DNA of 64,000 bases, taken from assembly GCA_022843925.1 (NCBI GenBank), contig JALHMS010000012.1:62001-126000 (forward strand). Direction: 5' to 3'. The notes under the pieces are model-generated. The model searched no databases. It was not told where the DNA came from and worked only from the letters and a program-made list of their open reading frames with translations. Positions 20,107 through 40,115 of the stretch are shown one piece after another. The translations under genes were made by a program, and so were the position numbers. Origin of the DNA: Burkholderiales bacterium (GTDB lineage Bacteria; Pseudomonadota; Gammaproteobacteria; Burkholderiales; Ga0077523). The first letter of the stretch is position 1. Each line of letters opens with the position of its first letter.

Positions 20107-20217
20107 CCGCCGCCCGCGTCGGCGGGTGGCCCAGCTGATCCGACGCGATGTCGGGCTGCCTCGTCCGGTCGGATGACCTGACGACGCAGCCCGGCCCGAC
20201 GGCAGCCGATGTCGGAC

Positions 20218-20254
20218 AAGACGATGCCCCGCCTCGCGCGGGGCATCGTCTTTT
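20218..20254 (+). terminator. Strong terminator after sodB
   Basis: A perfect 13-bp stem (GACGATGCCCCGC and its complement, extended by two A-T pairs) closes a 5-base loop and runs into TCTTTT. It separates sodB from the signalling island. Confidence 0.9.
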
Positions 20255-20376
20255 CGGGCGCCCGGTTTCTCGCGAAAGGGGCGGGACGGACGATGGTCAT
20301 CCGCTCGCGCAGCTCAAGATGGCTTTGCCGCAGACGTTACGGGAACGTCCCGACCTGGCCTCGACCGAACCCCCAC

Positions 20377-23300
20377 ATGCACCCGTCGTCTCCCGCGGAG
20401 CGCACTCCCCGCCAACCGATGGAGCATCGCCTCGCCTCTGCCATCGGTGTGGCCGGCCTGGTGCTCGTCGCGGGTGTGGCCGTGACGGCAGGCTGGTGGG
20501 TCCACGAACGCGACGTCCGCGGTGAACTGCATCGCCAGATGTTCGATGCCACCGCCGAAGCGGTCGCCCGCCGCCTGGACGATCGTATCGGGGATCATCG
20601 ACAACGGCTCCGCCTGGTCGGGGAGGCCCTGGGCACGAGTCGGAACGATCGCCTCCCCCGCTCGACGTCGCCGGTGATCGCGGGACGATCCGGGCTGGAA
20701 TCGAGCGGTCTCGTCTGGGCCGCTCCCCCGATCGCCGGGGAGACGGGCGCCGACGGCATCGTGGTCGGCCCCCTCCGCGGGACCGGGCCCGCAGCCGATC
20801 CCCATTTCGAGCTTCTCCTGCCCGCCGCGGATGGTGGACCGGCACTGGCGGATCGCCTGCCCCTGCGGGCTCTGCTCCAGGAAGCGCTCTCTGGCGCCGA
20901 GGACAGCATCGCGGCGCGCCTTGCCGCCGGACGAGACTCTTCCGGTGTCTCCGGCGACGCGATGCGGCGGGCGTTGTCCCGCGAACCGCGACACCGCCTC
21001 TCGCGACCGATCCTCAATGGCGGTCCCGGCTGGACCCTGGAACTCTGGTCCACACCGGGGAGCGACGCGCTTCAGGCCAGCCAGCAGGACGCCGTTTGGG
21101 CCTGGGGCACCGCGTTGTCCGTCCTGCTCGCCGGAGCATGCTTCGCCATCGTCGTCCGGCGCAGGCCCGAGACCGTGCCTCCGGCGGTGCCGGCGTCCGC
21201 CAGCTCCGCCCCGTCCCTGCGCAACGCCGTCGACGCCATCCCGGCCCCGCTGATCCTGCTCGACCGCGACCTGCGCATCACCCATCTGAATCGTGACGCG
21301 TGCGTCGCCCTCGGCGTCGAGGACGGTGCCGATCCCGCCGCCGCGTGGGATGCCCGACTGCATCCGGAGGACCGGGAACGCGTCCACACCCTCACCCGCG
21401 CCTCGGCCGACCTGGCGGACGGCAGCGAGATCGAGTTCCGCCTGCGGATGGCCGACGGCAACTTCCGTTGGGTCGCCATCCGTCGGCAACCGAACGCATC
21501 CGCCGGCGACAGCCGGGACGCCCACGTGGCGCTGATGATCGACCTGGACGACAGGCATCGCGCCGAGGCGCTGAGGGAGGAGGGGCGAAGATTCCTCGCG
21601 AACCTGATCGATGCCATTCCCACGCCGCTTCTCGTCAAGGATGCCGGCCACCGGTTCCTGCTGCTCAACCGTGCCGCCCTCGCCTGGACCGGTTGGCACG
21701 CTGCGGAGACGATCGGCCGCAGCGACCGCGATCTGCAGCCCCCCGAGGTGGCCGAGGAACTCATCGCCTTCGACCGTCGGGCGATGGCCTCGGCGGAGCC
21801 CGTCACCTGTGAGCGCACCTTCCGTCTGCCCGGCAACGTCGTGAAGCAGGCACAGGTCCACGAGGCGGGCTTCGATCTGCCCGACGGCGGGCGCGGAGTC
21901 GTGCTCGCGTATCGCGATCTCACCGAGGAGCGCCGGCTCGGCGACCAACTGCGCGAGAACCTCGCGTTCGAGCGTGCGATCCAGGAGAGCGCGAGCTGCG
22001 CGATCGTCTCGACGGACCCGCGCGGCTTCGTCTGCAGCGTGAACGCGGGCGCCGAACGCATGCTCGGCATCGACCGCGGCTCGCTGTCCCGGGTGGCGCT
22101 GACCGACCTCGTCGACATCGGTGCGCTCGCGGAGGTCCGGGTGCACGGTGTCGGGGATCCGGCCGCGGCGTTCTCGCAGCTGGTCGCGCGGGCGGGCGAG
22201 GGCCTGCTCCTGGACCGTGAGCTCACGCTGATGCGCAGCGACGGGGATATCGTCCATGTCACGGCCTCGATCACGCCGATGCGTGATGCCGGCGGCGCGG
22301 TGCGCGGCTTCGTGTTCGTCGCGCACGACACGTCGTCCCGGCGCCAGGCGGAGATGGCACGCGAGGAGACGCAGCACATCCTCGAGACCGTGCTGAACGC
22401 GCTGCCCGTCGCGGTGTTCGCGAAGGACGAGTCGTCCCGTCTCGTGCTCGCGAACGATGCCGTCGCCCACCTGCATGGCCGGTCGCGCGAGGCGATGCTC
22501 GGCTCGCGCGACGACGATCTCCACGACGAGGCCGACGCCCGGCGGCTTCGCGACGAGGATCGTCTGCTCTTCGCCGGCGGCCCGATGCTGCTCACGGAGG
22601 AGTCCTTCGAGCAACCGGGTCAGGGAACGCGATGGATGCGGCGGACCAAGCGTCTGGTGTCGCTGCGCGATGGGCGCCGCATCCTGGTCGGCTCGCTCAC
22701 GGACATCACGTCGACCCGCGAGGCCGATCGGGAGATCGAGCGCCATCGCGCCTTCCTCCGCGCGATCATCAACGCGGTTCCGCACCACATCCACGTCACG
22801 GATTCGCAGCATCGACGCCTGCTTGCCAACGATGCCTTCTCCGCGTGGCTCGGCGCGTCCTCGAACGGCGTGCAGGCGACCGACGATCCCGACATCGCGG
22901 CGCGACTGCAGGCGGATCGCGAGGAGGATGCGCGCGTCCTGGCCGACGGGGCGTCGATCCTCGTCGAGGGGGAACTGCAGAGTCCCACGGGCGATATCGG
23001 TTGGTGGCTGCGCTCGAAGACGCGGCTCGTGCTGCCCGACGGTTCACGCTACGTGGTCGGGGTCACGATGGACATCACCGCCCAGCGCGCCGCGGTGCGG
23101 GAGATGGCGCGCCAGCGCGCGTTCGTCACGCGCATCCTCGATTCCCTGCCGAACCCTGTCTACGTGAAGGACGCCGATCAGGGCTGGGTGCTCGTCAATC
23201 GTGCGTTCGCCGCGCTGGTCGGTGTCGAGCCATCCGAACTCGCGGGGCGGGCCGCCGACGCCGTGACGCCGTTGGCGGCCGTGGCCGACATGCGGGAGGA

Positions 23301-25251
23301 CGATCGCATCGTGCTGCGCAGTCGCCGTCCGTACGCCGGCGAGCGGCGCATCGCCCGTCCGGGCCGCGCCGACGCGTGGTTCCTCGAGAGCAAGGTGTGT
23401 GTCGAACAGGCCGACGGCGAGCCCTACCTCGTGGCCGCACTCGTCGATATCACCGAGCAGAAGCGCGCGGAGCAGGCTCTCGTGCGCTCGACCCGCCGGC
23501 TGCAGTTGCTGAACGATCTCTCGGGCGAGGACGCCATGCGCATGCCCCTCCCGGTCCTGGCGCGCGAGGTCGTGGAAGGCACCGCGCAGATCTTCGCGAG
23601 CGAGCGGGTCGGCCTGCTCGCACTGTCCGGCGGCGGCAGCACGAGTGCGCTCCTGCACGTCGTCGCGCCACCGGGCATGGCGCTTCCCGCGGAGGCCGCC
23701 GACCGGTGCGGCATCTGTCCCGGCGTGCTCACCGCCCTTTCGCATTCGCGCGCGGTCTGCATTCCGGACGTGCAGCGCGATCCGCGGACCGCACCCCATG
23801 CCGAGGCGCTGGCCGCCGCCGGCGTCCGCGCACTCCTGGCGGCGCCGTTGAAGGTGGCGGGCGAACTGCGAGCGGTGCTGTTCATCGAGCGCTCCGATGT
23901 CCGGACATGGCACGCCGATGACAGCGATGTGCTGGTCGAGGTCGCGGAAGCGGTGTCCGTCGCGCTGGCGACGCAGGAATCGGAAGCGAGTCGCCGGCTC
24001 GCGGAACGCGCCCTGCAGGAGAGCGAGTCGGTCCTGAGCGCCACGGTATGGGCTTCCGAGCTCGGGGTCTGGACGTGGCACGCGCGGACCAATGGCGTGC
24101 GCTTCTCCCCCCAGTACAAGCGCCAGCTCGGGTTCGAACCCGACGAGTTTCCCGATACGTTCGAGGCGTGGCGCGCCCAGGTGCATCCCGACGATCTCCA
24201 GCGCGTGCTGGACGAACTGCAGCGGGTGGTGGCGTCGGGCGAGGATCGGTTCCAGGCGGAGATGCGCCTGCGGCATCGCGATGGCGGCTGGCGGCACATC
24301 GTGTCGCGGGCCCAGGTCCAGCGCGATGGCGACGTCGGCAACGTCCGGCTGGTCGGCGGTCACATCGACGTGACGGAGTTCCGTCAAGCCCAGGACGCCC
24401 TGCGCCGCCACCGCGACGAGCTGGAGCAGATCGTCGCGGAGCGCACCCGGCAGCTGACGCTCGCGAAGGAATCGGCCGAGGCCGCGAATCGCGCGAAGTC
24501 CGAGTTCCTCGCGAACATGTCGCACGAACTGCGCACGCCGATGCACGCGATCCTGTCTTTCTCTCGACTCGGCATGGAGCGCGCGGCCGGCACGGACGAG
24601 GCGCCGCAGCGCATCGGCAAGTATCTGGGCCGCATCAACGAGAGCGGGGAGCGCCTGCTCACGCTGCTGAACGATCTGCTGGACCTCTCGAAGCTCGAGG
24701 CCGGGCGGATGTCGTACGAGTTCGCGCGGCACGACCTGCGCGAGGTGGTCGAGGCGGCCGTGATCGAACTGCACGCCCTGGCGCGCGAGAAGGACATCAC
24801 GCTCGACGTGGTGGCGGGCTTCCAGCCCGAGTACGCGGTCTGCGACGCACTGCGCATGGGGCAGGTGATCCGCAATCTGCTGGGCAATGCGATCAAGTTC
24901 ACACCGGGTGGCCGGCGCGTCACGGTCGAGCTGGCGACCGAGGCCGGCGGACTGGCGGATTCCGACGGATCCGGCGCGCCGCGCGAGGCGGTGCGCCTCA
25001 CCGTCAGCGACGAGGGCATCGGTATCCCGGAGGCCGAACTGCAACTGGTGTTCGAGAAGTTCGCGCAGAGCAGCGCCACGAAGACGGGCGCCGGCGGCAC
25101 CGGCCTCGGGTTGTCGATCTCGCGGGAGATCGTGATGCAGCACGGGGGGCTGATCCGCGCGGAGCCGGCACCGGGCGGCGGTGCGGCGTTCGTGGTGATC
25201 CTGCCGCGCGAGCGGCTCGCGGCCGGCGACGAAGGGCGTTCGGTGGCGTAG
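20377..25251 (+). CDS. Multi-PAS/GAF membrane sensor histidine kinase (kinase 1)
   Basis: About 1624 residues. TM1 lies near residues 18-41 and TM2 near 240-261, enclosing a roughly 200-residue periplasmic region of no recognised family. Then come PAS domains starting near 281, 406, 530, 667, 791 and 914, a GAF domain (about 1041-1190), a PAS_3 domain (about 1218), and the HisKA H-box NMSHELRTPMHAI with H1383. The ATPase shows NLLGNAIKFT, DEGIGIP and GAGGTGLGLSI. There is no receiver domain, so a separate regulator must take the phosphate. The start is uncertain (ATG 20377 or 20419); earlier in-frame ATGs lie in or just after the sodB terminator. Several PAS copies share the pattern NALPVxVxxKD, a sign of internal duplication. 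Confidence 0.9.
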   Translation: MHPSSPAERTPRQPMEHRLASAIGVAGLVLVAGVAVTAGWWVHERDVRGELHRQMFDATAEAVARRLDDRIGDHRQRLRLVGEALGTSRNDRLPRSTSPVIAGRSGLESSGLVWAAPPIAGETGADGIVVGPLRGTGPAADPHFELLLPAADGGPALADRLPLRALLQEALSGAEDSIAARLAAGRDSSGVSGDAMRRALSREPRHRLSRPILNGGPGWTLELWSTPGSDALQASQQDAVWAWGTALSVLLAGACFAIVVRRRPETVPPAVPASASSAPSLRNAVDAIPAPLILLDRDLRITHLNRDACVALGVEDGADPAAAWDARLHPEDRERVHTLTRASADLADGSEIEFRLRMADGNFRWVAIRRQPNASAGDSRDAHVALMIDLDDRHRAEALREEGRRFLANLIDAIPTPLLVKDAGHRFLLLNRAALAWTGWHAAETIGRSDRDLQPPEVAEELIAFDRRAMASAEPVTCERTFRLPGNVVKQAQVHEAGFDLPDGGRGVVLAYRDLTEERRLGDQLRENLAFERAIQESASCAIVSTDPRGFVCSVNAGAERMLGIDRGSLSRVALTDLVDIGALAEVRVHGVGDPAAAFSQLVARAGEGLLLDRELTLMRSDGDIVHVTASITPMRDAGGAVRGFVFVAHDTSSRRQAEMAREETQHILETVLNALPVAVFAKDESSRLVLANDAVAHLHGRSREAMLGSRDDDLHDEADARRLRDEDRLLFAGGPMLLTEESFEQPGQGTRWMRRTKRLVSLRDGRRILVGSLTDITSTREADREIERHRAFLRAIINAVPHHIHVTDSQHRRLLANDAFSAWLGASSNGVQATDDPDIAARLQADREEDARVLADGASILVEGELQSPTGDIGWWLRSKTRLVLPDGSRYVVGVTMDITAQRAAVREMARQRAFVTRILDSLPNPVYVKDADQGWVLVNRAFAALVGVEPSELAGRAADAVTPLAAVADMREDDRIVLRSRRPYAGERRIARPGRADAWFLESKVCVEQADGEPYLVAALVDITEQKRAEQALVRSTRRLQLLNDLSGEDAMRMPLPVLAREVVEGTAQIFASERVGLLALSGGGSTSALLHVVAPPGMALPAEAADRCGICPGVLTALSHSRAVCIPDVQRDPRTAPHAEALAAAGVRALLAAPLKVAGELRAVLFIERSDVRTWHADDSDVLVEVAEAVSVALATQESEASRRLAERALQESESVLSATVWASELGVWTWHARTNGVRFSPQYKRQLGFEPDEFPDTFEAWRAQVHPDDLQRVLDELQRVVASGEDRFQAEMRLRHRDGGWRHIVSRAQVQRDGDVGNVRLVGGHIDVTEFRQAQDALRRHRDELEQIVAERTRQLTLAKESAEAANRAKSEFLANMSHELRTPMHAILSFSRLGMERAAGTDEAPQRIGKYLGRINESGERLLTLLNDLLDLSKLEAGRMSYEFARHDLREVVEAAVIELHALAREKDITLDVVAGFQPEYAVCDALRMGQVIRNLLGNAIKFTPGGRRVTVELATEAGGLADSDGSGAPREAVRLTVSDEGIGIPEAELQLVFEKFAQSSATKTGAGGTGLGLSISREIVMQHGGLIRAEPAPGGGAAFVVILPRERLAAGDEGRSVA

Positions 25252-25286
25252 GAGATGGCGCGGCTTCGGGCATCCCGCCCGAGACT

Positions 25287-25718
25287 TCACCGATTGGCAG
25301 GCAGCGCGGCGAGCCCCTTGACCCGGTCGCCGGGTCGGATGCCCCGCTTGCGGAACCAGCCGACATTCGCCTCGATCGACCAGGCCGCGTTGCCCTTGGA
25401 GGCATGCACGTCTTCAGTGAGGGGCAGCATGTCCTCGATGTTGAGGATGCGTCCGTCGGCGCCGACGAATGCCACCGACAGCGGGATCAGCGTGTTCCGC
25501 ATCCACATCGCCTGCGGCCCCGGCTTGTCGTACGTGAAGACCATGCCTTGGTCCTCGCCCAGGCTGCGGCGATGCATGAGTCCGAGGCGTCGCTCGGCCT
25601 CGGTGCCCGCCACTTCCACCCTGAGGGTGTGACCGCGGATCTCCAGGGGGAAGGTGAAGAGCGGGTCCGCCCGCCCGGTCAGCCCGAAGACCAGCCCGAC
25701 GAGCCCGGCCAGTGTCAT
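25287..25718 (-). CDS. DUF192 exported protein
   Basis: A 143-residue protein with an N-terminal hydrophobic signal (LAGLVGLVFGL) and the DUF192 fold: VEVAGTEAERRLGLMHR, QAMWMRNTLIPLSVAFV and NIEDMLPLTED. The family is widespread, periplasmic and of unknown function. It lies in opposite orientation between kinase 1 and kinase 2, facing kinase 1 with 35 bases between stops and divergent from kinase 2. The long upstream extension of this frame is a shadow of kinase 2. Confidence 0.85.
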   Translation of the reverse strand: MTLAGLVGLVFGLTGRADPLFTFPLEIRGHTLRVEVAGTEAERRLGLMHRRSLGEDQGMVFTYDKPGPQAMWMRNTLIPLSVAFVGADGRILNIEDMLPLTEDVHASKGNAAWSIEANVGWFRKRGIRPGDRVKGLAALPANR

Positions 25719-25842
25719 CAAGGCGCCGCGTCGCCGCGCCGTAAAGCCATGGAGCGGACCGACCTCGAACGTCTCGTCCCGACCTGCCGGCCGCGACCCC
25801 GCCGGCCCGCAGCTTCCACGGCCCTCCAACCCCGGACCTTCG

Positions 25843-28800
25843 TTGAACTCCACGGTCACCTCTTCGGAAGACAGGACGCATCTGCGACGCCAGCGGCTGC
25901 CATCGCCGCTGATGGCGCTGGCACTCGGTCTCGTGCTGACCCTCGCCGTCTGGACCCTGACCGAATATGACCGAACGCGCTCCGAGGCGCAACGCGCGGC
26001 CGACGGTGCCGACCGCGTCGCCCACGAACTGGATCGCAGTCTTCGGCTGCTGGAGCAGTCGCTCCGCATGACCGCTGCCGGCGTGCTCTGGCGGACCAGT
26101 CTCGACGCCACGCACTGGGCCGACTTCGCCGACCGCCTGCAGTTGCCGGGTCTCACGCCGGGCGCTGTCGCGGGTCTGGGTTTCGCACCCCGGCAGGTGC
26201 GGGGCAACGGGATCGGCACCGGCGCGACTGGTGCCGACCGTCCGCGGCATCCGGTGCGTTTCGTGAGGCAGTGGGACCCCGCGGCGCCGCTGCCGGAGAT
26301 CGGCGTCGATCTCACGGCCGACTCGCCCCGGATCCCGGACCTCTGGCGCGTGCGCCGCAACCTCGGACCGGTCTACTCGGTCGCGTGGGATCCTGCGGCC
26401 CGGGGCGGGGCGTCCGTACCCACGGCCTGGCTGCTGCTTCCTGTGGAGGACGACGGCTACGCGAAGGGTGGGACCCGCGGGGTCCTGGTGGCGTCGCTGC
26501 GACTGGACGCCTTGCTCGGAGCCGCGCTGGCGACGGGTTCCGGCCTGCTGGGAGAACTCACGGTGCCAGGGGAGGCCGGCACGCCGCTGCGGGTGCGCGC
26601 CGGTGCTTCCGCCTTGCCCACCGCCGGATCGCTGCACACCCGCGATCTCGCCCGCCCAGGGGGCGCCTGGTCGGTCGCCGTGGGCCTGCGGAACCCGACA
26701 CCGATGTTCGGCGGCAGTGGCGTCGTGCTCGTCGCCGGCGCCATCGCGACCGTGGTCGTGGTCGGGTTCGCGGTGCGTACCCGCGAGGTGCGTCGTCGCG
26801 CCGACCGGTTCGAGGATCGCGCCGCGCGGAGCGAATCGCGCTTCGAGTTGCTCGCCGAGTCGGCACCCTTCCTGGTCTGGATGACCGACAACACCTTGTC
26901 TGCCACCTACCTCAATCCGGTGTGGCGGCAACTCACCGGCGCCGAACGGTCGTCGGGCCTCGGGACCTCATGGCGCGACGCGATCCATCCCGACGACCAC
27001 CCGATGCTGCAGGCGGCGCTGTCGACGGAGGGTGACGAAGGCACGTTCCGCTGCCGGATCCTGCATCGCGACGGCAGCCACCGCTGGTTGCTCGTCAACT
27101 ACCGCCGGACGACTGACGAGGCGGGTTCGCCGAGCGGCATCATGGGCGTGGGCATCGACATCGACAGCGTGCACCGGGCGGAGGAACTCCGCGAAGCCGA
27201 CCATCAGTTCCTGCGGGTCCTGCTCGATTCCGTGCCGGCCCCGATATGCGTCAAGTCGGCGGATCTTCGCTACCTCCTCGTGAACGATGCACTGTGCCGC
27301 CTGCTCGGTCGCACCCGGGAGGAGATCCTGGGCCGGGACGACTTCGACCTGTATCCGCCCGACGAGGCCGATGCCATCCGGGCACGCGACAGCCGGGTGC
27401 TCGCCGCGAACACCGCACTCGCGTTCGAGGCGCAGTACAGCTTTCCCGGCGGGCGGGTCATCGATGCCACCGGAGCAAAGACCGTCATCCGGCGCGGGGA
27501 CGGGGCAGCCCTGGTGCTCACCGCCATCAACGATGTCACCGCACTTCGCACGCAGGAGCGTGAACTCGTCGCCGTGGGACTGCGTCTCCAGGTCACCGGG
27601 GAGATCCTCCGGGCGGCACTCGATGCGCGTCCAGCCGCGGTGGTCATCGACATCGCGCTGCGCGGACTCGCAAGGCTCCTGGGGGACGTCCGGGTGACCT
27701 TCTGGACACCGCAGGCGCAGGACGTCGCCCGCGTCGCGCAGTCGTTGGGCACGGCTTCCCTGCCCGCGCTCGAGCCCATGACGGGCGACCCCGGCGCCCT
27801 CGAGCGCTATCGCGATCTGCTCGTGGACCTGCCGTGCCTCGTGCTGCGGGACATCGCGGCGGCCGACGAGCCGGCCGGCATGCACGGTGCGACCGCCGGG
27901 GCCCTGATCGGCGTGCCCGTCCGCGTGCGCGGGAGCCTGTGGGGGATCATCGAGATCGAGGCCCATGCGCCTCGCCAGTGGATGCCCGCGGACGTCAGCT
28001 CCGTCATGGACATGGGCAACGCACTCGCCGCGCACGGCGAGTTCGCCGCGGCGCGGGACGAGCGGGATGCTGCCTATCGCGACGTCGGTGACCAGCGGGC
28101 CTTCCTCGATGCGATTCTGGATTCCATTCCGCATCCGGTCTTCGTGAAGGATCGTGCCCATCGCCTGGTGACGGTCAACCAGGCAGTCTCCGATGCGTGG
28201 CAGCTCCCGAAGTCGGAGATCCTTGGTCGCCGGGACGAGGATCTCATCCCGCACGCGGCCGCGATGCAGGCTTACGAGGAGGACGACCGCGTTTTCGCCG
28301 ACGGCGTCGCGCTCACGCGGGAGACACGGTTCCGGACGCGCGCGGGCAACGGGGAGTGGGCGCTGCTCATCAAGCAGCGGGTGCTGGCCGCCGCGGGGCG
28401 GGAGTGTCTCGTCGGCGTGGCGATCCCCGTGGGGGATCTCAAGGCCGCGCAGCAGCGCGCCGAGGAGAGCGAGCGGCTTCTGTCCGCCGTGCTGAACGCG
28501 ATTCCGACGCCTGTCGTCGCGAAGGACGACGCGCTGCGGTGGGTGCTGGTGAACGATGCCTGCCTTGCAGCCGTCGGCCGGACGCGCGACGCGGCGCTGG
28601 GCCTGACGGATGCGGAGATCCTCCCACCCGCAGAGGCGGCGCGCTTCTCCGAGCAGGACCGCCAGGTGCTTGCGACCGGGCAGGCCCGGCGCTGCGAGGA
28701 GGCCTACCTCCGGGCCGACGGGGTGCAGGCCTGGCGAATCCAGTCGAAGCAGGTGGTCCGCCTGGTCGATGGTCGCAGCCTCGTGGTCGCGGCCGCCATC

Positions 28801-31800
28801 GACATCACGGATCGCAAGCGGGTCGAGAACGAGGCGCTCGCGGTCGGGAGGCGGCTGGAGCTGATGAACGCGCTCGGCGCAGCCACGATCGCCGGCACCG
28901 CCTTCGCGGATGTCGCCAAGTTGGCGGTGGACGGACTCGCGCGACTGGTGTCCTGCAGCGGCGCCGCGTACGCGACGATCGACGCGGACGGGCGTGTCCC
29001 GGCGCTGCATGTCGGGGGATTCTCCGAGGGTGCCGGACCGGGCACCGAGGCCTTCCGGCTGGCGGCCGCGCCCGGACACTATGAACTCCTCGCGAGCGGA
29101 CCGGTGGCCGTGACCCGCGACGTCGACGCGGTGCCTGCCGTTTCCGCCCTGGCCGCCGCCCGCCGGGACGGGGGCATGAAGGCGAGCGTCGAGGTGCCCG
29201 TCATGCGCCGAGGCCGGCTGCGCGGCGTGGCCGCCCTCTGCTCGGACGCGCCGCGGGACTGGTCCGACGAGGAGATCGCGATCCTGCGTGCCGTGGGCGA
29301 TGCCCTGGCCCTCGCACTCGAATCGAGTGAGGCGGCGGCGGAGCGGCTCCGGGCCGAGCGCGGCCTCCGCGAGGCGAAGGACTTCGTCGAGGGGCTGATC
29401 GACGCGGTCCCCCAGGCCATCTTCGTGAAGGACGAGGCCGGACGATGGGTGATGGCGAATCGGGCGTTCCAGCGCATGTGCGGGCTTGAACGGGAGGCTC
29501 TCATCGGGCGCACGAACCGCGAGGTCCACCCGGATGCCTGGGAGCGCATGGACCGCGAGGATGCCGAGGCCTTCGCGAGCCTGCAGCCGCTTCAGTACGA
29601 GGTCCCGGTGCAGGATGCATCGGGTGGCACGACGTGGTGGCTCACCTCGAAGTCGGCGGTGCAACTGTCGGCAGGAACGCGCTATCTGGTGTGCTCCGCC
29701 GCGGACGTGAGCGCGCTGAAGACGGCGTCGGTCGAGGTGGAGCGCGGGCGCCAGTTCCTCGATGCCGTGCTGAATGCCTTGCCGGTGCCGGTATTCGTGA
29801 AATCCACCGACCACCGGTGGGTCATCGTGAACGAGGCCGGCGAACGGTTGTACGGCCGGCCGCGATCGGAACTCGTGGGTTGCACCGACCACGATCTGCA
29901 CGACAAGGCCTTCAGCGACGCGGCGTGGCGCGAGGACGATTTCGTGCTTGCTGGGCACGGTCCCATCGTCGACGAGATCCACATGCCCGTCCGCGACGGA
30001 TCGCCGCGCTGGATCCTCAAGACCAAGGTCGCCACCGCGCTCGCCGACGGCAGCCGCTTCGTGATCGTCGCGAGCCTCGACATCACGGGCCGCAAGCAGG
30101 CCGAGGAGGAGGTCTTCGCAAGCCGGGCCCGCCTCGAGGTGCTGAACGGCATCGCCGGTTGCATGGTGCGGGGGGCGCCGCTCGACGAGACCGTGGCGTT
30201 CGCGGTCCGCAGTCTGTCGGAAGCCCTCGGCGGCACGCCCGTCGCCTATTGGCGGCGGGAGGGCGGGCGGGTCGTGGTGGCCGAAAGCGCCGATGCGGCC
30301 CTGGCCGGCAGTGTCATCGACATCGGTGCGGTCCCGGCCTGCCTTGCCCATCTCGAGGCCGGACGGGCGGTCGTCGTCGCGGATGCGAGTGGGCGCGTCG
30401 ATGCCGGGCTCGACGCCATGGCTGCAGCGTTCGCGGCGTCGGGGATGCGGGCATTCATCGCGATGCCCATCGGTGCCGGCACGGCGTCCGGCCTGCAGGC
30501 TTTGCTCACCCTCTCCTCGCCGGTGCCGCGGTCGTGGACGCCCCATGAGCGCCGCACGGTGCAGGAGGCCGCGGAGAGCCTGGTCCTGGCGCACATCGGG
30601 GACAGCGCGGAGCGTGCGCGGGCGCAGGTCGAGGCGGAACTGCGCGAGAACGAGGCAGTGCTCCAGGCGATGGTGTGGGCCTCGGATCTCGGACTCTGGA
30701 CGTGGGACGCCGTCCGCGATACCTACTGGTTCTCCGAGCGGGCCAAGGGCCAGCTCGGCTATGCGCCGCACGAGTTCGCCGATTCGGCGGCGTGGAGCGA
30801 GCACGTCCTGGAGGAGGACAGGCCGCGATTCGCGGCGGCTCTCAGGGCCAGCCTCCTGTCGGACTCGAACCGCTACGAGATCGAGTATCGGCTCCGGCAT
30901 CGCGACGGCAGCTACCGCAACATGCTGGTCCGGGCCCAGATCCAGCGCGACGCCGCAGGGCGCGCGGTGCGCTTCGTCGGCGCCAACATCGACGTCACCG
31001 ATTTCCGACGCGCACAGGCCGACCTGATCCGGCATCGCGACGATCTCGAGCGGGTGGTGGCGGAGCGGACCGCCGAGTTGGTCATGGCGAAGGATTCCGC
31101 CGAAGCCGCCAATGCGGCCAAATCGGAGTTCCTCGCCAACATGTCGCACGAGTTGCGGACCCCGATGCACGCGATCCTGTCGTTCTCGCGCCTCGGCATC
31201 GATCGCACCGGCGACCTCGACGTGCCGGTACCGAAGATCCGCCAGTACCTCGACCGGATCCATCAGAGCGGTGCACGCCTGCTGGCGCTGTTGAACGATC
31301 TGCTCGACCTCGCGAAGCTGGAGGCCGGGAAGATGCGCTACGAGTTCGCCCGGTGCGATCTGGTCGATGTCGTCCAAGGCATCGTGGCGGAGATGACCGC
31401 CTACGCGAGGGAGAACGGCGTGCGGATCGACGTCCGCCACGAGGGGCCGGTCTTCGCATGGTGCGATGCGCTGCGGGTCGGACAGGTCGTGCGCAACCTG
31501 CTGTCCAACGCGGTGAAGTTCACACCCTCCGGGAAGGTCGTGCGGGTCGTCGTCGATTCAGCCGACGGGGATCTCGTGCGCGTTGCGGTGCTCGACGAGG
31601 GCGTGGGCGTACCCGAGGACGAACTGGAGGCGGTCTTCGACAAGTTCGTCCAGAGCAGCAAGACCAACAGCGGCGCCGGCGGCACCGGCCTGGGCCTCGC
31701 CATCTGTCGCGAGATCGCCAGACAGCACCGCGGGAGCATCTGGGCCCGGAACGATCCCGGCGGCGGTGCCTGCTTCACATTGACGTTGCCTGCGCGGTCG

Positions 31801-31836
31801 GACGACGTCGCGCCACCACGGATGGAGGCGGCATGA
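25843..31836 (+). CDS. Giant multi-PAS/GAF sensor histidine kinase (kinase 2)
   Basis: About 1997 residues from TTG 25843; ATG 25912 is the alternative but would cut into the first membrane helix and drop the basic RRQR flank. TM1 is near 24-40, a CHASE-like periplasmic region near 60-250, TM2 near 292-312. PAS domains begin near 334, 456, 754, 879, 1181, 1305 and 1607, with GAF domains at about 580-735, 1003-1163 and 1430-1585: a repeating PAS-PAS-GAF order. The HisKA H-box has H1769; the ATPase has NLLSNAVKFT, DEGVGVP and GAGGTGLGLAI. No receiver domain. The stop overlaps the ATG of kinase 3. A large antisense open frame here is a codon-bias artefact. Confidence 0.9.
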   Translation: MNSTVTSSEDRTHLRRQRLPSPLMALALGLVLTLAVWTLTEYDRTRSEAQRAADGADRVAHELDRSLRLLEQSLRMTAAGVLWRTSLDATHWADFADRLQLPGLTPGAVAGLGFAPRQVRGNGIGTGATGADRPRHPVRFVRQWDPAAPLPEIGVDLTADSPRIPDLWRVRRNLGPVYSVAWDPAARGGASVPTAWLLLPVEDDGYAKGGTRGVLVASLRLDALLGAALATGSGLLGELTVPGEAGTPLRVRAGASALPTAGSLHTRDLARPGGAWSVAVGLRNPTPMFGGSGVVLVAGAIATVVVVGFAVRTREVRRRADRFEDRAARSESRFELLAESAPFLVWMTDNTLSATYLNPVWRQLTGAERSSGLGTSWRDAIHPDDHPMLQAALSTEGDEGTFRCRILHRDGSHRWLLVNYRRTTDEAGSPSGIMGVGIDIDSVHRAEELREADHQFLRVLLDSVPAPICVKSADLRYLLVNDALCRLLGRTREEILGRDDFDLYPPDEADAIRARDSRVLAANTALAFEAQYSFPGGRVIDATGAKTVIRRGDGAALVLTAINDVTALRTQERELVAVGLRLQVTGEILRAALDARPAAVVIDIALRGLARLLGDVRVTFWTPQAQDVARVAQSLGTASLPALEPMTGDPGALERYRDLLVDLPCLVLRDIAAADEPAGMHGATAGALIGVPVRVRGSLWGIIEIEAHAPRQWMPADVSSVMDMGNALAAHGEFAAARDERDAAYRDVGDQRAFLDAILDSIPHPVFVKDRAHRLVTVNQAVSDAWQLPKSEILGRRDEDLIPHAAAMQAYEEDDRVFADGVALTRETRFRTRAGNGEWALLIKQRVLAAAGRECLVGVAIPVGDLKAAQQRAEESERLLSAVLNAIPTPVVAKDDALRWVLVNDACLAAVGRTRDAALGLTDAEILPPAEAARFSEQDRQVLATGQARRCEEAYLRADGVQAWRIQSKQVVRLVDGRSLVVAAAIDITDRKRVENEALAVGRRLELMNALGAATIAGTAFADVAKLAVDGLARLVSCSGAAYATIDADGRVPALHVGGFSEGAGPGTEAFRLAAAPGHYELLASGPVAVTRDVDAVPAVSALAAARRDGGMKASVEVPVMRRGRLRGVAALCSDAPRDWSDEEIAILRAVGDALALALESSEAAAERLRAERGLREAKDFVEGLIDAVPQAIFVKDEAGRWVMANRAFQRMCGLEREALIGRTNREVHPDAWERMDREDAEAFASLQPLQYEVPVQDASGGTTWWLTSKSAVQLSAGTRYLVCSAADVSALKTASVEVERGRQFLDAVLNALPVPVFVKSTDHRWVIVNEAGERLYGRPRSELVGCTDHDLHDKAFSDAAWREDDFVLAGHGPIVDEIHMPVRDGSPRWILKTKVATALADGSRFVIVASLDITGRKQAEEEVFASRARLEVLNGIAGCMVRGAPLDETVAFAVRSLSEALGGTPVAYWRREGGRVVVAESADAALAGSVIDIGAVPACLAHLEAGRAVVVADASGRVDAGLDAMAAAFAASGMRAFIAMPIGAGTASGLQALLTLSSPVPRSWTPHERRTVQEAAESLVLAHIGDSAERARAQVEAELRENEAVLQAMVWASDLGLWTWDAVRDTYWFSERAKGQLGYAPHEFADSAAWSEHVLEEDRPRFAAALRASLLSDSNRYEIEYRLRHRDGSYRNMLVRAQIQRDAAGRAVRFVGANIDVTDFRRAQADLIRHRDDLERVVAERTAELVMAKDSAEAANAAKSEFLANMSHELRTPMHAILSFSRLGIDRTGDLDVPVPKIRQYLDRIHQSGARLLALLNDLLDLAKLEAGKMRYEFARCDLVDVVQGIVAEMTAYARENGVRIDVRHEGPVFAWCDALRVGQVVRNLLSNAVKFTPSGKVVRVVVDSADGDLVRVAVLDEGVGVPEDELEAVFDKFVQSSKTNSGAGGTGLGLAICREIARQHRGSIWARNDPGGGACFTLTLPARSDDVAPPRMEAA

Positions 31837-34817
31837 CGGCCGGTTCTGCCGCGACGGGGATCGAGCTGCCAGCCGCAGCGGCGCCACGCCCGGGCAGCGA
31901 TCGGCCAGCGTGGCGGGTGCTGCCGTGGTTGGTCGCGGTGGCCGGGGTCGCGGTCACGCTGCTTGCCGCCTGGTTTGCCCGTGAGCGCTGGGACGACGCG
32001 GCCCGGGATCGGCTCGGGGCCATGGTCAGCGCCGAAGCCATGCGTCTCGTCGGCCGCCTCGAGTCTGCCGAAGAGGTCCTTCGCGGCGCGGCTGCCCATG
32101 CGGCACTCACGGATCGGGAGGGCGAGTGGAGCGCCTACGTGGATCGCCTCGAGCTCCCCGTCCACCATCCGGAGATGTCGCGACCCGTGCTCCGTGTGCG
32201 CCCCGTGGATCGCCGCGGCGCGTCGGCGGCCTGGGCCCCTGTCACAGCCGGCGAGGGTGGGCCGGCCGGCGGAGGCGGGGCACTCCGCGTCCGAGTGTCG
32301 GTGCCGGTCCTGCGCGGGACTGCCGCGGGCGGCGACGACGTCGTCGGTGCCGTCGAGTCGACCGTCGTGGTGACCGTCGGCGACCAGGGCGGGACGGTCT
32401 CGCCCAGGCCGGTGAGCTGGACGCTCGGCGCGGTGTCCGAGTCGGCGGTCCGCGCCGCGGCATCGGGCGGGACGATGGCGGTGTCGTCGATGGAGCACCG
32501 CGGGCACCGATGGTGGCTTGCAGCGACCCCTGCACCGGACTTCTTCCGCGACTTCGATGCCGTGGACCCCAACGTCGTGCTGTCGACCGGCCTGTGTCTG
32601 ACGGGCATCGTGGTCACGGCCCTGCTGTTCGCGCAGCGTCGCCGTCCCGCATCGGTCGAGGCCGGTGGCGAGGCCCGGGTCCCGTGGGTCTCGGCCGGCA
32701 GAGACTCCGCTCCGGATCTGCAGCGGGTGATCGACGCGCTCCCGAACCCGCTGTTCGTGAAGAGCGACCAGGCCCGCTGGGTGGCCGTGAACGATGCGTT
32801 CTGCCGACTCGTGGGGCGGCCGAGGGAAGCGCTGCTGGGCCATACGGATGCCGATCTGCTGCCCGCGGAACATGCGGCGCGCAACATGGACGAGGACGCC
32901 ATCGTGCGCCGCACCGGCACCGGCCGGACCTTCGAGGAGCGCCTGATCGGCGCCGACGGGACAGAGCGATGGTTGCTGAAGAACAAGTCCCCGATCCGCC
33001 TGGCCGACGGCACGACCTTTCTCGTGGGGATCGCGACCGACATCACGGAACGTCGGCGCCACGAGCAGTCGGTGCTCGCTTCCCGACACCGGTTGCAGCT
33101 GGTGAACGAGCTGACCGCAGCGGTGGTCGGCGGTCTTCGACGGGTGGATGTGGTCCGGCTTGCCGTCGACCGGCTGGCCGCGACCCTGCCGGGTGCCCGG
33201 GTCACCTTCGCAGCCGGCCTCGGGGAATCCCTGACCGCCGAACGCGTCAGCGGCGGCGCGGATCTCCCGGTGATCGGCGAGGACCGGTTCTCGGTCCGCG
33301 ACGCGGTCTGGGAGTCCGGACTCGCCGCAGGTCTCCCGATGAGCATCGACGACGGCACCCGGGACGGGGCGTATCCCGCGCTGACCAGCCATCTGCACGC
33401 CGCCGGTGTGTCCGCCGTGCTTGAGGCGGCGGTGCGCGGGGAGGGTGGAATGCTGGGGCGCATCGCCCTCGACCGTCGCGGACCGCATGCGTGGACGAAC
33501 GACGAGCGGCAGACCGTCATCGCGGTCGCCGATGCCGTGGCCGTCGTGCTCGGATACCTCCGCGCGAGCGCCGACCGCGAGGCGGCGGTGCAGGCGATGC
33601 GGAACCAGGAGGATGTCCTGCAGGCGGTCATCTGGGCGACGGATCTCGGCGTCTGGACCTGGGACGTGGCCGCGAACCGCGTGCACTGGTCGGTCGAGGC
33701 CAAGCGCCAGCTCGGCTACGGGGACGACGAGCTGGCCGGCAGTTGGGACAACTGGAAGCGCCGGGTGCATCCGGACGATCTCGCCCGTGTCCTGGGAGAG
33801 CTTCAGGCGCGGCTGGACTCGGGTGCCGACCGCTTCGAGTCGGAATTCCGGCTTCGCCACCGCGATGGTCGTTGGATCCACATCCTGTCGCGAGCCCGGA
33901 TTCGTCGCGATGAAGGCGGTACGCCGGTCCGCCTGCTCGGCGGCCATCTCGACGTGACCGAGTTCCGCCACGTTCAGGAGGCGCTGAGGAACCACCGGGA
34001 CGTCCTGGAGCGGAACGTGGTCGAGCGGACGGCGGAGCTGCTGGCGGCCAAGAATGCGGCCGAAGCCGCCAACCGCGCGAAATCGGAGTTCCTCGCCAAC
34101 ATGTCGCACGAGCTGCGGACGCCCATGCATGCGATCCTCTCGTTCGCGCAGCTCGGGATCTCGCGGTCCGGGGACACGGCGAAGACGCGGCAGTATCTGG
34201 AGCGTATCGACACGAGCGGCCGGCGGCTGCTGGGGTTGCTGAACGATCTGCTCGACCTGTCCAAGCTCGAAGCGGGGGCCATGCAATACGATTTCGGCTC
34301 GCACGGCGTCCAGGCCATCGCCGGTGCCGCCATCCAGGAGTTCGCGCTCCTGGCCGGGGAGCGCAGGATCTCGGTGGTGCTCGAAGCGGAGGACATCCCG
34401 GCATGGTGCGATCCGGTGCGTATCGGACAGGTGCTGCGGAATCTCCTCTCGAACGCCATCCGCTTCAGCCCGGTCGATGGCGCGATCCGTCTGGTGGTCG
34501 GGGCGGCTAGCATGGGTGAGGGCGCGGCGACGGCGCCCGCGGTACGGGTGGCGGTCGAGGACCATGGCGTCGGCATTCCGGAAGCCGAACTCGAGACGGT
34601 CTTCGACAAGTTCGTGCAGAGCAGCAAGACGAGGAGCGGTGCCGGTGGCACCGGGCTCGGGCTCGCCATCTGTCGGGAGATCGTCGGCCAGCATCGCGGC
34701 ACCATCCGGGCAGAGGCAACGCCCGGGGGCGGTGCGACAATCGTCATGTTGTTGCCACGGGAGCCGTTATCGCACGTGACTGACTCGGTACATGACTCAA
34801 GGAGTGATATCGCATGA
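31833..34817 (+). CDS. PAS/GAF sensor histidine kinase (kinase 3)
   Basis: A 994-residue kinase translated from ATG 31833, overlapping the kinase 2 stop. TM1 is near 29-49 and TM2 near 248-268, with a periplasmic loop unlike that of kinases 1 and 2. A single PAS (about 296-410), a GAF (about 420-575) and a PAS_3 (about 595) precede HisKA (H759, NMSHELRTPMHAI) and the ATPase (NLLSNAIRFS, DHGVGIP, GAGGTGLGLAI). Its C-terminal half follows the same order as in the other two kinases, so the three share ancestry and differ in sensor length. It has no receiver domain. The stop overlaps the start of the first response regulator. Confidence 0.92.
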   Translation: MTAGSAATGIELPAAAAPRPGSDRPAWRVLPWLVAVAGVAVTLLAAWFARERWDDAARDRLGAMVSAEAMRLVGRLESAEEVLRGAAAHAALTDREGEWSAYVDRLELPVHHPEMSRPVLRVRPVDRRGASAAWAPVTAGEGGPAGGGGALRVRVSVPVLRGTAAGGDDVVGAVESTVVVTVGDQGGTVSPRPVSWTLGAVSESAVRAAASGGTMAVSSMEHRGHRWWLAATPAPDFFRDFDAVDPNVVLSTGLCLTGIVVTALLFAQRRRPASVEAGGEARVPWVSAGRDSAPDLQRVIDALPNPLFVKSDQARWVAVNDAFCRLVGRPREALLGHTDADLLPAEHAARNMDEDAIVRRTGTGRTFEERLIGADGTERWLLKNKSPIRLADGTTFLVGIATDITERRRHEQSVLASRHRLQLVNELTAAVVGGLRRVDVVRLAVDRLAATLPGARVTFAAGLGESLTAERVSGGADLPVIGEDRFSVRDAVWESGLAAGLPMSIDDGTRDGAYPALTSHLHAAGVSAVLEAAVRGEGGMLGRIALDRRGPHAWTNDERQTVIAVADAVAVVLGYLRASADREAAVQAMRNQEDVLQAVIWATDLGVWTWDVAANRVHWSVEAKRQLGYGDDELAGSWDNWKRRVHPDDLARVLGELQARLDSGADRFESEFRLRHRDGRWIHILSRARIRRDEGGTPVRLLGGHLDVTEFRHVQEALRNHRDVLERNVVERTAELLAAKNAAEAANRAKSEFLANMSHELRTPMHAILSFAQLGISRSGDTAKTRQYLERIDTSGRRLLGLLNDLLDLSKLEAGAMQYDFGSHGVQAIAGAAIQEFALLAGERRISVVLEAEDIPAWCDPVRIGQVLRNLLSNAIRFSPVDGAIRLVVGAASMGEGAATAPAVRVAVEDHGVGIPEAELETVFDKFVQSSKTRSGAGGTGLGLAICREIVGQHRGTIRAEATPGGGATIVMLLPREPLSHVTDSVHDSRSDIA

Positions 34818-35722
34818 TGCCCAAGGTCGCAAGATTGCTGGTTGTGGATGACGAACCGTTCAACCTCGAGATCATCGCCGAGCACCTCGACGGTGCCGGC
34901 TACGAGTTGGTGACGGCGAACGATGGGCAGGAGGCGTGGGATCTCCTGCAGAACGCCGGCGAAGACGAATTCGACGCCCTCATCCTCGACCGGATGATGC
35001 CGCGGATGGACGGACTCACGCTGCTGAAGCGGGTGAAGCAGGAGGCGCGCTTCCGCCAGGTCCCGGTCATCATGCAGACCGCCGCCGCGTCGAAGGAACA
35101 GGTGATGGAGGGCATACAAAACGGTGCCTACTATTACCTGACGAAACCGTTCGACGGCGAGGTGCTCGCCACGATCGTCCGCGCCGCACTGGCCGATCGG
35201 GCCGGCTGGAAGGACCTCACGCGATCCGCCCAGCGCGACACGCAGTTGTTTGCACTGATGGTGGAGGGGCGCTTCCAGTTCCGTACGCTCGAGGATGCCC
35301 GCGGCCTCGCGCAGCTGCTGGCGAACGCATGTCCGGAACCTGCCGGGGTGAGTCTCGGACTCCTGGAGCTGCTCGTGAATGCCGTGGAGCACGGCAACCT
35401 GGGCATCACCACGAAAGAGAAATCCCGTCTGCTCCATCAGGGCCTGTGGGAGAAGGATGTGGCGCGCCGTCTCGAGTTGCCGGAGAACGCGCAGAAGTGG
35501 GCCGAGGTGAGCTTCCGTCGCGACAGCGACGCCGTGCGGTTCACGATCCGGGATCAGGGCGACGGTTTCGATTGGAAGGCATTCCAGGAATTCGATCCCG
35601 CGCGCGCCTTCGAGCCGAACGGACGGGGGATCGCGCTTGCCCGACAGCTCTGCTTTGCAGATCTCGAGTACCTGGGCAACGGCAGCGAGCTGCGGTTCTC
35701 GGTGTCCGTTTCGCAAGGCTGA
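34814..35722 (+). CDS. Response regulator with RsbW-like ATPase output
   Basis: A 302-residue fusion. The receiver (about 1-125) has the VVDDE acidic pocket, phospho-acceptor D59 (LILDRMMP), T89 and K111. The C-terminal half is a HATPase_c_2 domain of the anti-sigma-kinase type: N-box ELLVNAVEHGN (N189), G1 IRDQGDGF (D247) and G2 GRGIALARQL. RsbW-type proteins bind a sigma factor or phosphorylate a STAS antagonist; here phosphorylation of the receiver would gate that. ATG 34814 overlaps the kinase 3 stop, so the four genes from kinase 2 onward are coupled or near-coupled. Confidence 0.9.
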   Translation: MMPKVARLLVVDDEPFNLEIIAEHLDGAGYELVTANDGQEAWDLLQNAGEDEFDALILDRMMPRMDGLTLLKRVKQEARFRQVPVIMQTAAASKEQVMEGIQNGAYYYLTKPFDGEVLATIVRAALADRAGWKDLTRSAQRDTQLFALMVEGRFQFRTLEDARGLAQLLANACPEPAGVSLGLLELLVNAVEHGNLGITTKEKSRLLHQGLWEKDVARRLELPENAQKWAEVSFRRDSDAVRFTIRDQGDGFDWKAFQEFDPARAFEPNGRGIALARQLCFADLEYLGNGSELRFSVSVSQG

Positions 35723-35726
35723 CGCG

Positions 35727-36950
35727 ATGCCAGGATTGCGTCCCCCGATGCAGGAGTCGGAGTCGTCCATGTCGGCATGCGCCGGCGGTGGCGCGCCGGA
35801 CACCGCCGACCGCATGGAGATCCTGGTCGTCGACGATTCTCCCTCGATCGTGGCGTTGCTCCGGAGCTACCTCACGGCGCAGGGCCATGGGGTCACCACC
35901 GTCGAGGATGGCGAGGCGGCGGTGGAAGCCTTCGCGAGATTGTCCCCGGATCTCGTCCTGCTGGATGTGGTCATGCCCGGCATGGATGGGATCGAGGTCA
36001 CCAAGCGCCTGAGGGCCATTTCCCGGGATCGCTGGGTTCCGGTCATCCTCGTGTCCTCGCTCCAGACCGAGCAGGATGTCGTCCGCGGTCTCGAAGCGGG
36101 CGCCGACGACTATCTTCCGAAACCGATCAATCTGGCGGTGCTGAAAGCGAAGATTCGTTCCTTTCACCGCATCGTCCGCATGCAGACCGAGATGCGCAGT
36201 CAGACGGACATGCTGCGCAGGCTCCAGGACGAACAGACGTACGAGCACGAATTGGCGGCCTCGCTGATCAAGGCGATCGTCCAGCGCGTCGGGCTCCAGG
36301 AGCCCCGCCTCGCATGGCGCGTCATGCCTTCGGCGCGGTTCAGCGGCGATGTCGTCGCAGCCGAGCGGGGCGCGAACGGGACGTTCTACGCGCTTCTCGC
36401 CGATGCCACGGGGCATGGGCTCACCGCATCGGTCAGCCTGATCCCGGCCCTCCAGATCTTCTACGGCATGGCGCGCAAGGGCTTGCCGCTCGGACAGATC
36501 GTCCGGGAGATCAACGCACGACTGCGGGAGCAGCTTCCCGTCGGCAGGTACGTGGCGGGACTGATGGTGGCCATCCATGACGAGGCTCAGCGATTCGAGT
36601 ACTGGAACGGCGGCATGCCGCCGGCCCTCCTGCTGGCCCCCGACGGGCAGTCCACGCGGGAACTCAAATCCGATCAGGTGGCGCTTGGCATCCTTCCCGA
36701 CGCCGACTTCGACGATTCATGCCGCGAACTGCCATTCGTGCGGGGCGAGCGATTGGTGGCGTACTCCGACGGCGTGATCGAAGCCACGGATCTGTCCGGC
36801 GAGCCCTACGGCATGAGTCGCCTTCTGGCGGCCGTGCACGCCTCGTCGGGCAAGGCCGCCCTCGACCGGGTGATGAGCGATCTCCACGCGCATCTCGACT
36901 GCGCGCCCCATCACGACGACGCCTCGATCTTCACCATCGATCTGGGCTGA
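35727..36950 (+). CDS. Response regulator with RsbU/SpoIIE PP2C output
   Basis: A 407-residue fusion: receiver (about 31-150; D80 in LLDVVMPG, K132), a coiled linker (about 150-185) and a SpoIIE/RsbU PP2C phosphatase with metal aspartates D208 (SGDVV), D226 (ADATGHG), D348 (YSDGVIEATD) and D397-D398. RsbU-type enzymes dephosphorylate STAS antagonists and so oppose RsbW. It follows the previous gene by four bases. ATG 35769 has the better ribosome site (GGAG, seven bases) and M30 also precedes the receiver, so the first 14-29 residues are uncertain. Confidence 0.9.
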   Translation: MPGLRPPMQESESSMSACAGGGAPDTADRMEILVVDDSPSIVALLRSYLTAQGHGVTTVEDGEAAVEAFARLSPDLVLLDVVMPGMDGIEVTKRLRAISRDRWVPVILVSSLQTEQDVVRGLEAGADDYLPKPINLAVLKAKIRSFHRIVRMQTEMRSQTDMLRRLQDEQTYEHELAASLIKAIVQRVGLQEPRLAWRVMPSARFSGDVVAAERGANGTFYALLADATGHGLTASVSLIPALQIFYGMARKGLPLGQIVREINARLREQLPVGRYVAGLMVAIHDEAQRFEYWNGGMPPALLLAPDGQSTRELKSDQVALGILPDADFDDSCRELPFVRGERLVAYSDGVIEATDLSGEPYGMSRLLAAVHASSGKAALDRVMSDLHAHLDCAPHHDDASIFTIDLG

Positions 36951-38947: not shown

Positions 38948-39009
38948 TAGTCGTTCCCCGGGCGGGGTGTGAATCCCGCCCGCTGAAGCGCCGTCTGGCA
39001 GCAAAGCAT

Positions 39010-39045
39010 GGGGAGGGTGAAGCACTTACCCTCCCCTGTTCTTTT
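39010..39045 (+). terminator. Terminator or attenuator between xoxF and xoxJ
   Basis: A 9-bp stem (GGGGAGGGT/ACCCTCCCC) with a 9-base loop is followed by TGTTCTTTT. An additional GGGCGGG/CCCGCCC stem lies just after the xoxF stop (about 38959-38982). Partial read-through here would give much more XoxF than XoxJ and XoxG. The 281-base gap 38948-39228 shows no gene. Confidence 0.75.
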
Positions 39046-39228
39046 GTGGAGCACGAAAACGACTTCAACCGATCCTTGGTGAAGTCGTTGCAACGTCGGC
39101 AGGGCACAAAAATACGAGTCAGGGATGGAGGGGGCTTGCGTCGAGACGATGGAAGATCGCCGGCACAGGACGATGTGTTCAGTTGGTGCAAGTGACACTG
39201 TCGCTGAGCGACAGGTGAGGAGTGCAAG

Positions 39229-40086: not shown

Positions 40087-40115
40087 TCCATTCGCGAATC
40101 TAGGGAGGAATCATC

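Follow-up and report, generated by a model that had tools for sequence, protein, structure and literature searches.

A probable partner switch with its kinase and phosphatase on separate response regulators in a Burkholderiales bacterium

A 64,000-nucleotide stretch of a Burkholderiales genome (GenBank assembly GCA_022843925.1, contig JALHMS010000012.1, positions 62,001 to 126,000 of the forward strand; G000:C12:62001-126000 in our numbering, hereafter the window) carries genes for large histidine kinases (K1-K3) and for two response regulators, RR1, with a receiver (REC) and an RsbW-like kinase domain, and RR2, with a receiver and a PP2C phosphatase domain. The original prediction, made from the sequence of the window, was that these opposing activities on two receivers serve one partner switch. 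Comparative analysis makes this probable, as a STAS gene co-occurs with RR1, and in the order of Magnetospirillum genes for both activities, fused or neighbouring, lie close to a STAS gene. We conclude, with a probability of roughly two in three, that the locus is part of a partner switch of the HsbR/CrsR-HsbA/CrsA type that has its kinase and its phosphatase on two separate response regulators and its STAS antagonist encoded on another contig, C11.

RR1 (34814..35722 of the window, plus strand) has an N-terminal REC domain (Pfam, 8.2e-27) and a C-terminal RsbW-like Bergerat domain (HATPase_c_2, 2.3e-9) within about 300 amino acids, the architecture of TciR/LvrC-type proteins. In a full-length alignment with 21 relatives, both the receiver residues (DD at 12-13, D59, T89 and K111) and the kinase motifs (N-box residues E185, N189 and H193, the D247-x-G-x-G motif, and GRG) are present, K111 and the kinase residues being invariant across the 22 sequences. 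The solved structure 9QIH matches RR1 over its full length (residues 7-299, E 5.4e-14). RR2 (35727..36950, plus strand) has a REC domain (3.4e-30) and a SpoIIE domain (1.4e-38), with receiver motifs and the four acidic motifs of PP2C phosphatases (SGD, LLADATGHG, SDG and HHDD). Judging by these motifs, both regulators look active. No DNA-binding domain was matched in either of them by Pfam.

The tree of 70 HATPase domains (of 72 rows; the HsbR-like rows of G055 and G062, whose loci are cut by contig ends, were lost here and from the SpoIIE tree) places RR1 among lone REC-HATPase proteins, together with two fusions from alphaproteobacteria, and separates this group from the HATPases at the C-terminus of fused REC-PP2C-HATPase proteins; both branches are starred at 100 by a quick method. 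We call these fused proteins HsbR/CrsR-like, a label that refers to domain order and gene neighbourhood alone. Since RR1 groups with the lone REC-HATPase proteins and not with the HsbR-like HATPases, the kinase role here would be played by a different protein under its own histidine kinases.

The genome of the window has five matches to the STAS family PF01740, two of them within long frames of 395 and 699 codons. None of the five lies in the window (PF13466 was not searched genome-wide), as the original prediction had stated. The STAS gene of contig C11 (G000:C11:24801-25103) closes a cluster that also has MCP, CheW, CheR and CheB genes, named by eye and by CheB/CheR comparisons. It encodes a CrsA/HsbA-like protein that reads DSSALG; the DS pair, with the phosphosite serine, is invariant in 70 of 70 aligned rows from hand-picked relatives (70 of 72 rows were retained, those of G129 and G138 being lost where contig ends cut the loci). 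A STAS antagonist with a phosphorylatable serine, as in the HsbR and CrsR systems, is thus present in the genome, and is the putative cognate partner of the two regulators. The lack of any STAS partner in the genome, named beforehand as a refutation of the original prediction, is therefore not what we observe. A locus with no STAS gene close by may still have its partner elsewhere in the genome. Among the other small STAS proteins, that of contig C7, from a cheA cluster, has DAAG in place of the phosphosite serine motif, and that of contig C2 adjoins a protein with HATPase and PP2C domains, with which it would form a second, separate partner switch. This neighbour (L065 6365-8446, G000:C2) consists of a HATPase_c_2 domain, a probable cyclic-nucleotide-type region read by eye, and a SpoIIE domain.

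The pair of regulators and the STAS gene were searched for in related genomes, a check proposed with the original prediction; the best candidates per genome were scored (up to 19 for RR1, 11 for the fused protein and 42 in a second set, and four for a fused protein of Magnetospirillum, L128). In a first set of 120 relatives, an RR1-type protein was found in 32 genomes (chosen by hand among matches of at least 184 bits; the match of G049 is cut by a contig end, and a partial match in G005 was left out), and the C11-type STAS was found in 44 at 1e-6. It is present in 31 of the 32 genomes with RR1, compared with 13 of the 88 without it (Fisher p 2.9e-17), and in 13 of the 14 families with RR1, compared with 6 of 37 without (p 6.8e-7); these p-values overstate the association because the genomes are related and the STAS gene travels with chemotaxis genes in shared che clusters. 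Within the genus, the eight of 12 genomes that have a full-length RR1 are exactly the eight that have the STAS; of the four others, G004 and G011 are 79 and 64% complete.

RR1 and RR2 themselves are adjacent in 8 of the 12 genus genomes; among the best 80 named loci, drawn from at least 556 relatives, at least 22 have them side by side (L081, recognized by eye, was missed by the scripted adjacency count, and L068 is the same contig as G001). Because adjacency is conserved to this extent, the arrangement is not due to chance. Loci of this kind are labelled triads below, and an RR1-type genome without such a locus is described as having no triad.

In relatives from the order of the studied bacterium, the STAS gene stands behind cheB and is followed by a gene for a fused REC-SpoIIE-HATPase protein (e.g. 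L284, L285, L286, L287 and L289), an order of genes seen in many genomes; in the genome of the window and in its genus, the C11-type STAS gene is followed by other genes, e.g. thrS. No fused REC-PP2C-HATPase protein was found in the genome of the window. The fused protein, selected by match coverage (28 full and 3 partial matches), was also found in none of the 11 triad genomes of the first set, with 11 candidates scored per genome, and the contig of the C11-type STAS in these genomes has no listed SpoIIE match, every SpoIIE candidate having been scored. G093 is counted among the 11 despite two stops in its RR1 frame.

The strongest evidence that the RR1 family acts on STAS proteins is gene linkage in the order of Magnetospirillum. 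In Magnetospirillum aberrantis (L128, Alphaproteobacteria) and in L141, a STAS gene directly precedes a gene for a fused REC-HATPase-SpoIIE protein, confirmed by Pfam. At least 50 of 297 sampled genomes from this order match the L128 protein at 1e-60, some of the matches being RR1-type or SpoIIE proteins alone. Among 30 loci from the order, 25 read as fused, and 21 of these have a STAS gene in the stretch; five read as split, with STAS in three within a short stretch. Six split cases, selected from the 50 genomes because their RR1-type and SpoIIE matches were distinct and side by side, were viewed in longer stretches. All six have the STAS, REC-HATPase and SpoIIE genes in that order on one strand, with a distance of 0 to about 1.7 kb between STAS and the REC-HATPase gene. 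Because the SpoIIE domains of L128 and L141 are distant from RR2 in the SpoIIE tree, this type of REC-kinase, a PP2C and a STAS appear to have come together on more than one occasion. A looser linkage is seen in G106, where STAS is followed by a REC-SpoIIE protein without a HATPase match, and a kinase and an RR1-type gene lie about 5 kb from STAS on the same strand, with two opposite-strand genes between. A split of another sort occurs in L380 (G055:C21:2901-4587), where an HsbR-like protein appears to be encoded in two pieces, REC-SpoIIE and HATPase, adjoining a STAS gene.

The kinases K1 (20209..25251, plus strand; a 1680-amino-acid open frame with Pfam HisKA, HATPase_c, PAS and GAF domains), K2 (25843..31836, plus strand, start uncertain) and K3 (31833..34817, plus strand) proved to be large membrane PAS/GAF histidine kinases without Pfam receiver domains, as predicted. 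In the N-terminal third of each lie two strongly hydrophobic stretches, and each has a single HELRTP H-box; the GAF domain of K3 contains a further, weaker hydrophobic stretch. The predicted layout of the regulators also stands: the K2-K3 and K3-RR1 junctions are ATGA overlaps, and a REC-HATPase_c_2 gene is followed, after a gap of four bases, by a REC-PP2C gene. The three kinases do not form one block, contrary to the prediction. A minus-strand DUF192 gene (25287..25718; PF02643, 1.2e-30), which is outside the system, intervenes between K1 and K2, and it occupies the same place beside the cluster in genus relatives. K1 is therefore probably a transcription unit of its own, and the operon likely consists of K2, K3, RR1 and RR2, with K1 as an added unit. 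The open frame of K2 begins at 25654, inside the DUF192 gene, and its next in-frame starts are at 25843 (TTG) and 25912 (ATG).

Three repeats, 70-77% alike in DNA, are common to the C-terminal parts of K1-K3, and the H-box regions are nearly identical in protein. The number of kinases differs between species of the genus: one H-box lies between the DUF192 gene and RR1 in G007, G008 and G009, and two in the genome of the window and in G006, in both of which K1 is on the far side of the DUF192 gene. The second residue after HELRTP is His in 37 of 42 kinases adjoining RR1-type genes and in 10 of the 26 remaining kinases from these stretches, a comparison that covers kinases with a readable H-box, uses a profile built from K1-K3 that favours the His form, and includes some genomes twice. 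The prevalence of the His form in RR1-adjacent kinases fits the idea that several kinases may converge on the same regulators. Given near-identical H-boxes and a varying number of kinases, it is plausible that K1-K3 set the balance of kinase and phosphatase activities, as the original prediction suggested.

In the mechanism that we propose, K2 and K3, and probably K1, would autophosphorylate and pass the phosphate to RR1 and RR2. The Bergerat domain of RR1 would phosphorylate the conserved serine of the C11 STAS protein, the PP2C domain of RR2 would remove this phosphate, and the phosphorylation state of the STAS protein would decide which partner it holds. RpoS, which is under the control of CrsR, was considered as the output and set aside: among 14 genomes searched, TIGR02394 matched over the cut-off only in G077, and neither in G000 nor in the genus members searched. 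If the genus has no RpoS, as this search suggests, the output should be another one; from Pseudomonas (PMC6482189), FlgM/FliA and a diguanylate cyclase are candidates. Were the mechanism true, one kind of antagonist and phosphatase could be combined with different kinases in a partner switch, and the two opposing activities could sit under separate receivers, with separate or shared inputs.

SypE is a single protein with a central receiver, whereas the system described here has two proteins. Acting on the STAS protein SypA of Vibrio fischeri, this response regulator brings together an RsbW-like kinase and a PP2C activity, according to a published account (PMC12826045). In HsbR-HsbA of Pseudomonas and CrsR-CrsA of Shewanella, one STAS protein is described as the target of a receiver, a PP2C domain and a kinase/anti-sigma domain, with crsR and crsA within a che locus (PMC6482189, PMC9855816). 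The STAS gene studied here likewise belongs to a che cluster. In contrast to HsbR and CrsR, each described as one polypeptide and fed by HptB in Pseudomonas, the REC, PP2C and HATPase domains are here divided between two regulators, and the kinase domain belongs to another lineage. Among solved structures, no match was obtained for the portion of one fused protein that runs from its linker to its end.

The closest known relatives of RR1 in architecture are TciR and LvrC, and together with HsbR/CrsR, already in print, they mean that the arrangement is not wholly undescribed, contrary to the original suggestion. TciK/TciR of Vogesella indigofera (2025) is a histidine kinase with a REC-RsbW-like regulator whose kinase residues are reported as conserved; homologues of TciR are reported in many beta-, gamma- and alphaproteobacteria (PMC12826045). 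RR1, compared with TciR by architecture, differs from it in that a REC-PP2C gene follows and a STAS gene co-occurs. LvrC of Leptospira (2026) is a REC-Bergerat regulator phosphorylated by a histidine kinase (PMC13269768); 9QIH is among the structures of that report, deposited under the name SenB, and its full-length match adds to the shared domain composition of LvrC and RR1. The LvrB/LvrC system differs from ours, insofar as the accessible text of the report describes no PP2C partner and makes no mention of STAS. We found no publication that ties a TciR-type REC-RsbW regulator to a REC-PP2C gene and a STAS protein; most of the subscription literature was outside this search, which is thus not proof of absence. 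The two reports leave the targets of TciR and LvrC open; the comparative evidence points to STAS proteins as candidates. The chances are about even that REC-RsbW proteins of the TciR/LvrC type generally are histidine-kinase-gated STAS kinases with an overlooked, often distant STAS protein, and that in this lineage such a protein has come to act as the kinase of a che-linked switch of the HsbR/CrsR type, whose input kinases grew in number by local duplication.

A second set of genomes widened the comparison. It comprises 22 triad genomes, without L095, in which G141 appears to be G001 again, and the STAS is present in 21 of them. The same search covered 11 other RR1-type genomes, with a STAS match at 1e-4 in 10, some of the matches being weak. 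The Chitinibacter-like genomes G142-G145 have two such STAS genes each. In the first set, at least two are found in 14 of 18 genomes with both an RR1-type and a fused protein, versus 2 of 12 with the fused protein and STAS and no RR1 type. The extra STAS is a candidate partner for TciR-type proteins. In L252, L254-L259 and other loci, it is often away from any SpoIIE gene. Four Zoogloea records (G125, G127, G134 and G137) have a triad and a fused HsbR-like protein with a single STAS match, which suggests two inputs on one antagonist. Cultured bacteria with a triad include Methyloversatilis and Zoogloea.

Several observations weigh against the proposed switch. The STAS gene does not adjoin RR1 or RR2 in the studied genome, and the overstated p-values of co-occurrence have been mentioned. 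The C11-type STAS is lacking in G014 (RR1 type, 38%), where a different STAS is near a SpoIIE match, in the triad genome G135, and in G146, an RR1-type genome with no triad. G005 (L218 4733-6879) has kept RR2 and an RR1 that lacks REC but has its kinase domain; by H-box pattern no kinase was found beside them, and the genome has no C11-type STAS at 1e-6; the RR1/RR2 pair can therefore persist without this STAS. The RR1-type frame of G093 (L067 1952-2923), broken by the two stops, is a pseudogene or an assembly fault. In the order of Magnetospirillum, four of the 25 fused loci have no STAS in the stretch (L394, L398, L399 and L402, the stretch of L402 being shorter). Strict exclusion of triad and fused protein, suggested by the absence of the latter in the first set, had to be given up: six of the 22 triads of the second set, four of them from Zoogloea, and perhaps a seventh (G129, ambiguous at a contig end), have the fused protein, always beside STAS. 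It can therefore coexist with the triad, and replacement is not general.

The origin of RR2 is a further point on this side. With three outgroup rows in the tree, RR2 groups with the REC-PP2C part of HsbR-like proteins and with six other REC-SpoIIE rows (support 100, starred; G062 was lost from this tree, and G055 is partial, 288 amino acids). A first SpoIIE tree nested RR2 within the HsbR-like rows, as for a truncated HsbR-like protein. With the outgroups, HsbR-like rows alone as one clade are rejected (p-AU 0.0011), and a sister placement of RR2 to the HsbR-like proteins is not (p-AU 0.727), so we do not claim an origin by truncation.

In an alternative explanation, RR1 would be an anti-sigma factor gated by its REC domain and binding a sigma factor directly, with no STAS involved and with RR2 acting elsewhere. 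This is the role proposed for TciR and for LvrC, the sigma factor of LvrC being unknown, and V. indigofera is reported to lack an RsbV homologue (PMC12826045, PMC13269768); the RR1-type protein of G014, a genome with no C11-type STAS match, agrees with this explanation. We consider it unlikely, since the N-box and ATP motifs of RR1 are intact, the RR2 phosphatase adjoins, RR1-family proteins from the order of Magnetospirillum have STAS genes nearby, and nearly all RR1 genomes of the first set have the STAS. Moreover, anti-sigma binding and STAS kinase activity are reported to coexist in HsbR (PMC6482189), so the two roles may be combined.

The same two regulators could act on another STAS protein of the genome, as both the C2 and the C7 genes are present. 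This is quite improbable: the C2 protein has a kinase/phosphatase neighbour of its own, the C7 protein lacks the expected phosphosite serine, and it is the C11 STAS that tracks RR1 within the genus, the distribution having been examined for this STAS. Finally, RR1 and RR2 might be local regulators, by an unrelated mechanism, of the genes that follow them (37214..40544, plus strand), which encode a PQQ-dependent dehydrogenase of the methanol/ethanol family (TIGR03075 over the cut-off), a solute-binding protein and a cytochrome c. Behind RR2, the dehydrogenase gene is present in the window, in all eight genus genomes examined (G001-G003 and G005-G009, with only the start of the gene within the examined stretch in G008 and G009), and also in two genomes of another family, G049 and G093; the solute-binding protein and cytochrome c genes are likewise 3' of the regulators in the genus and in these two genomes. 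Such a local role is very improbable, as the dehydrogenase was matched in only 3 of 97 RR1-type loci at 1e-12, one of the three being a genus member, and neither regulator has a matched DNA-binding domain. The partner switch acting on the C11 STAS protein is the reading that we prefer.

Two further features of the locus were set aside. A 125-amino-acid frame between K1 and K2 (25255-25632), considered as a missed STAS gene, has no Pfam match and is a shadow of the minus-strand DUF192 gene. A tRNA-Ser called by ARAGORN at 29919-30009, inside the coding frame of K2, is probably a false positive. Upstream of K1, a gene for a PP2C-type phosphatase (18587-19417) precedes a superoxide dismutase gene, which it also adjoins in several genus relatives.

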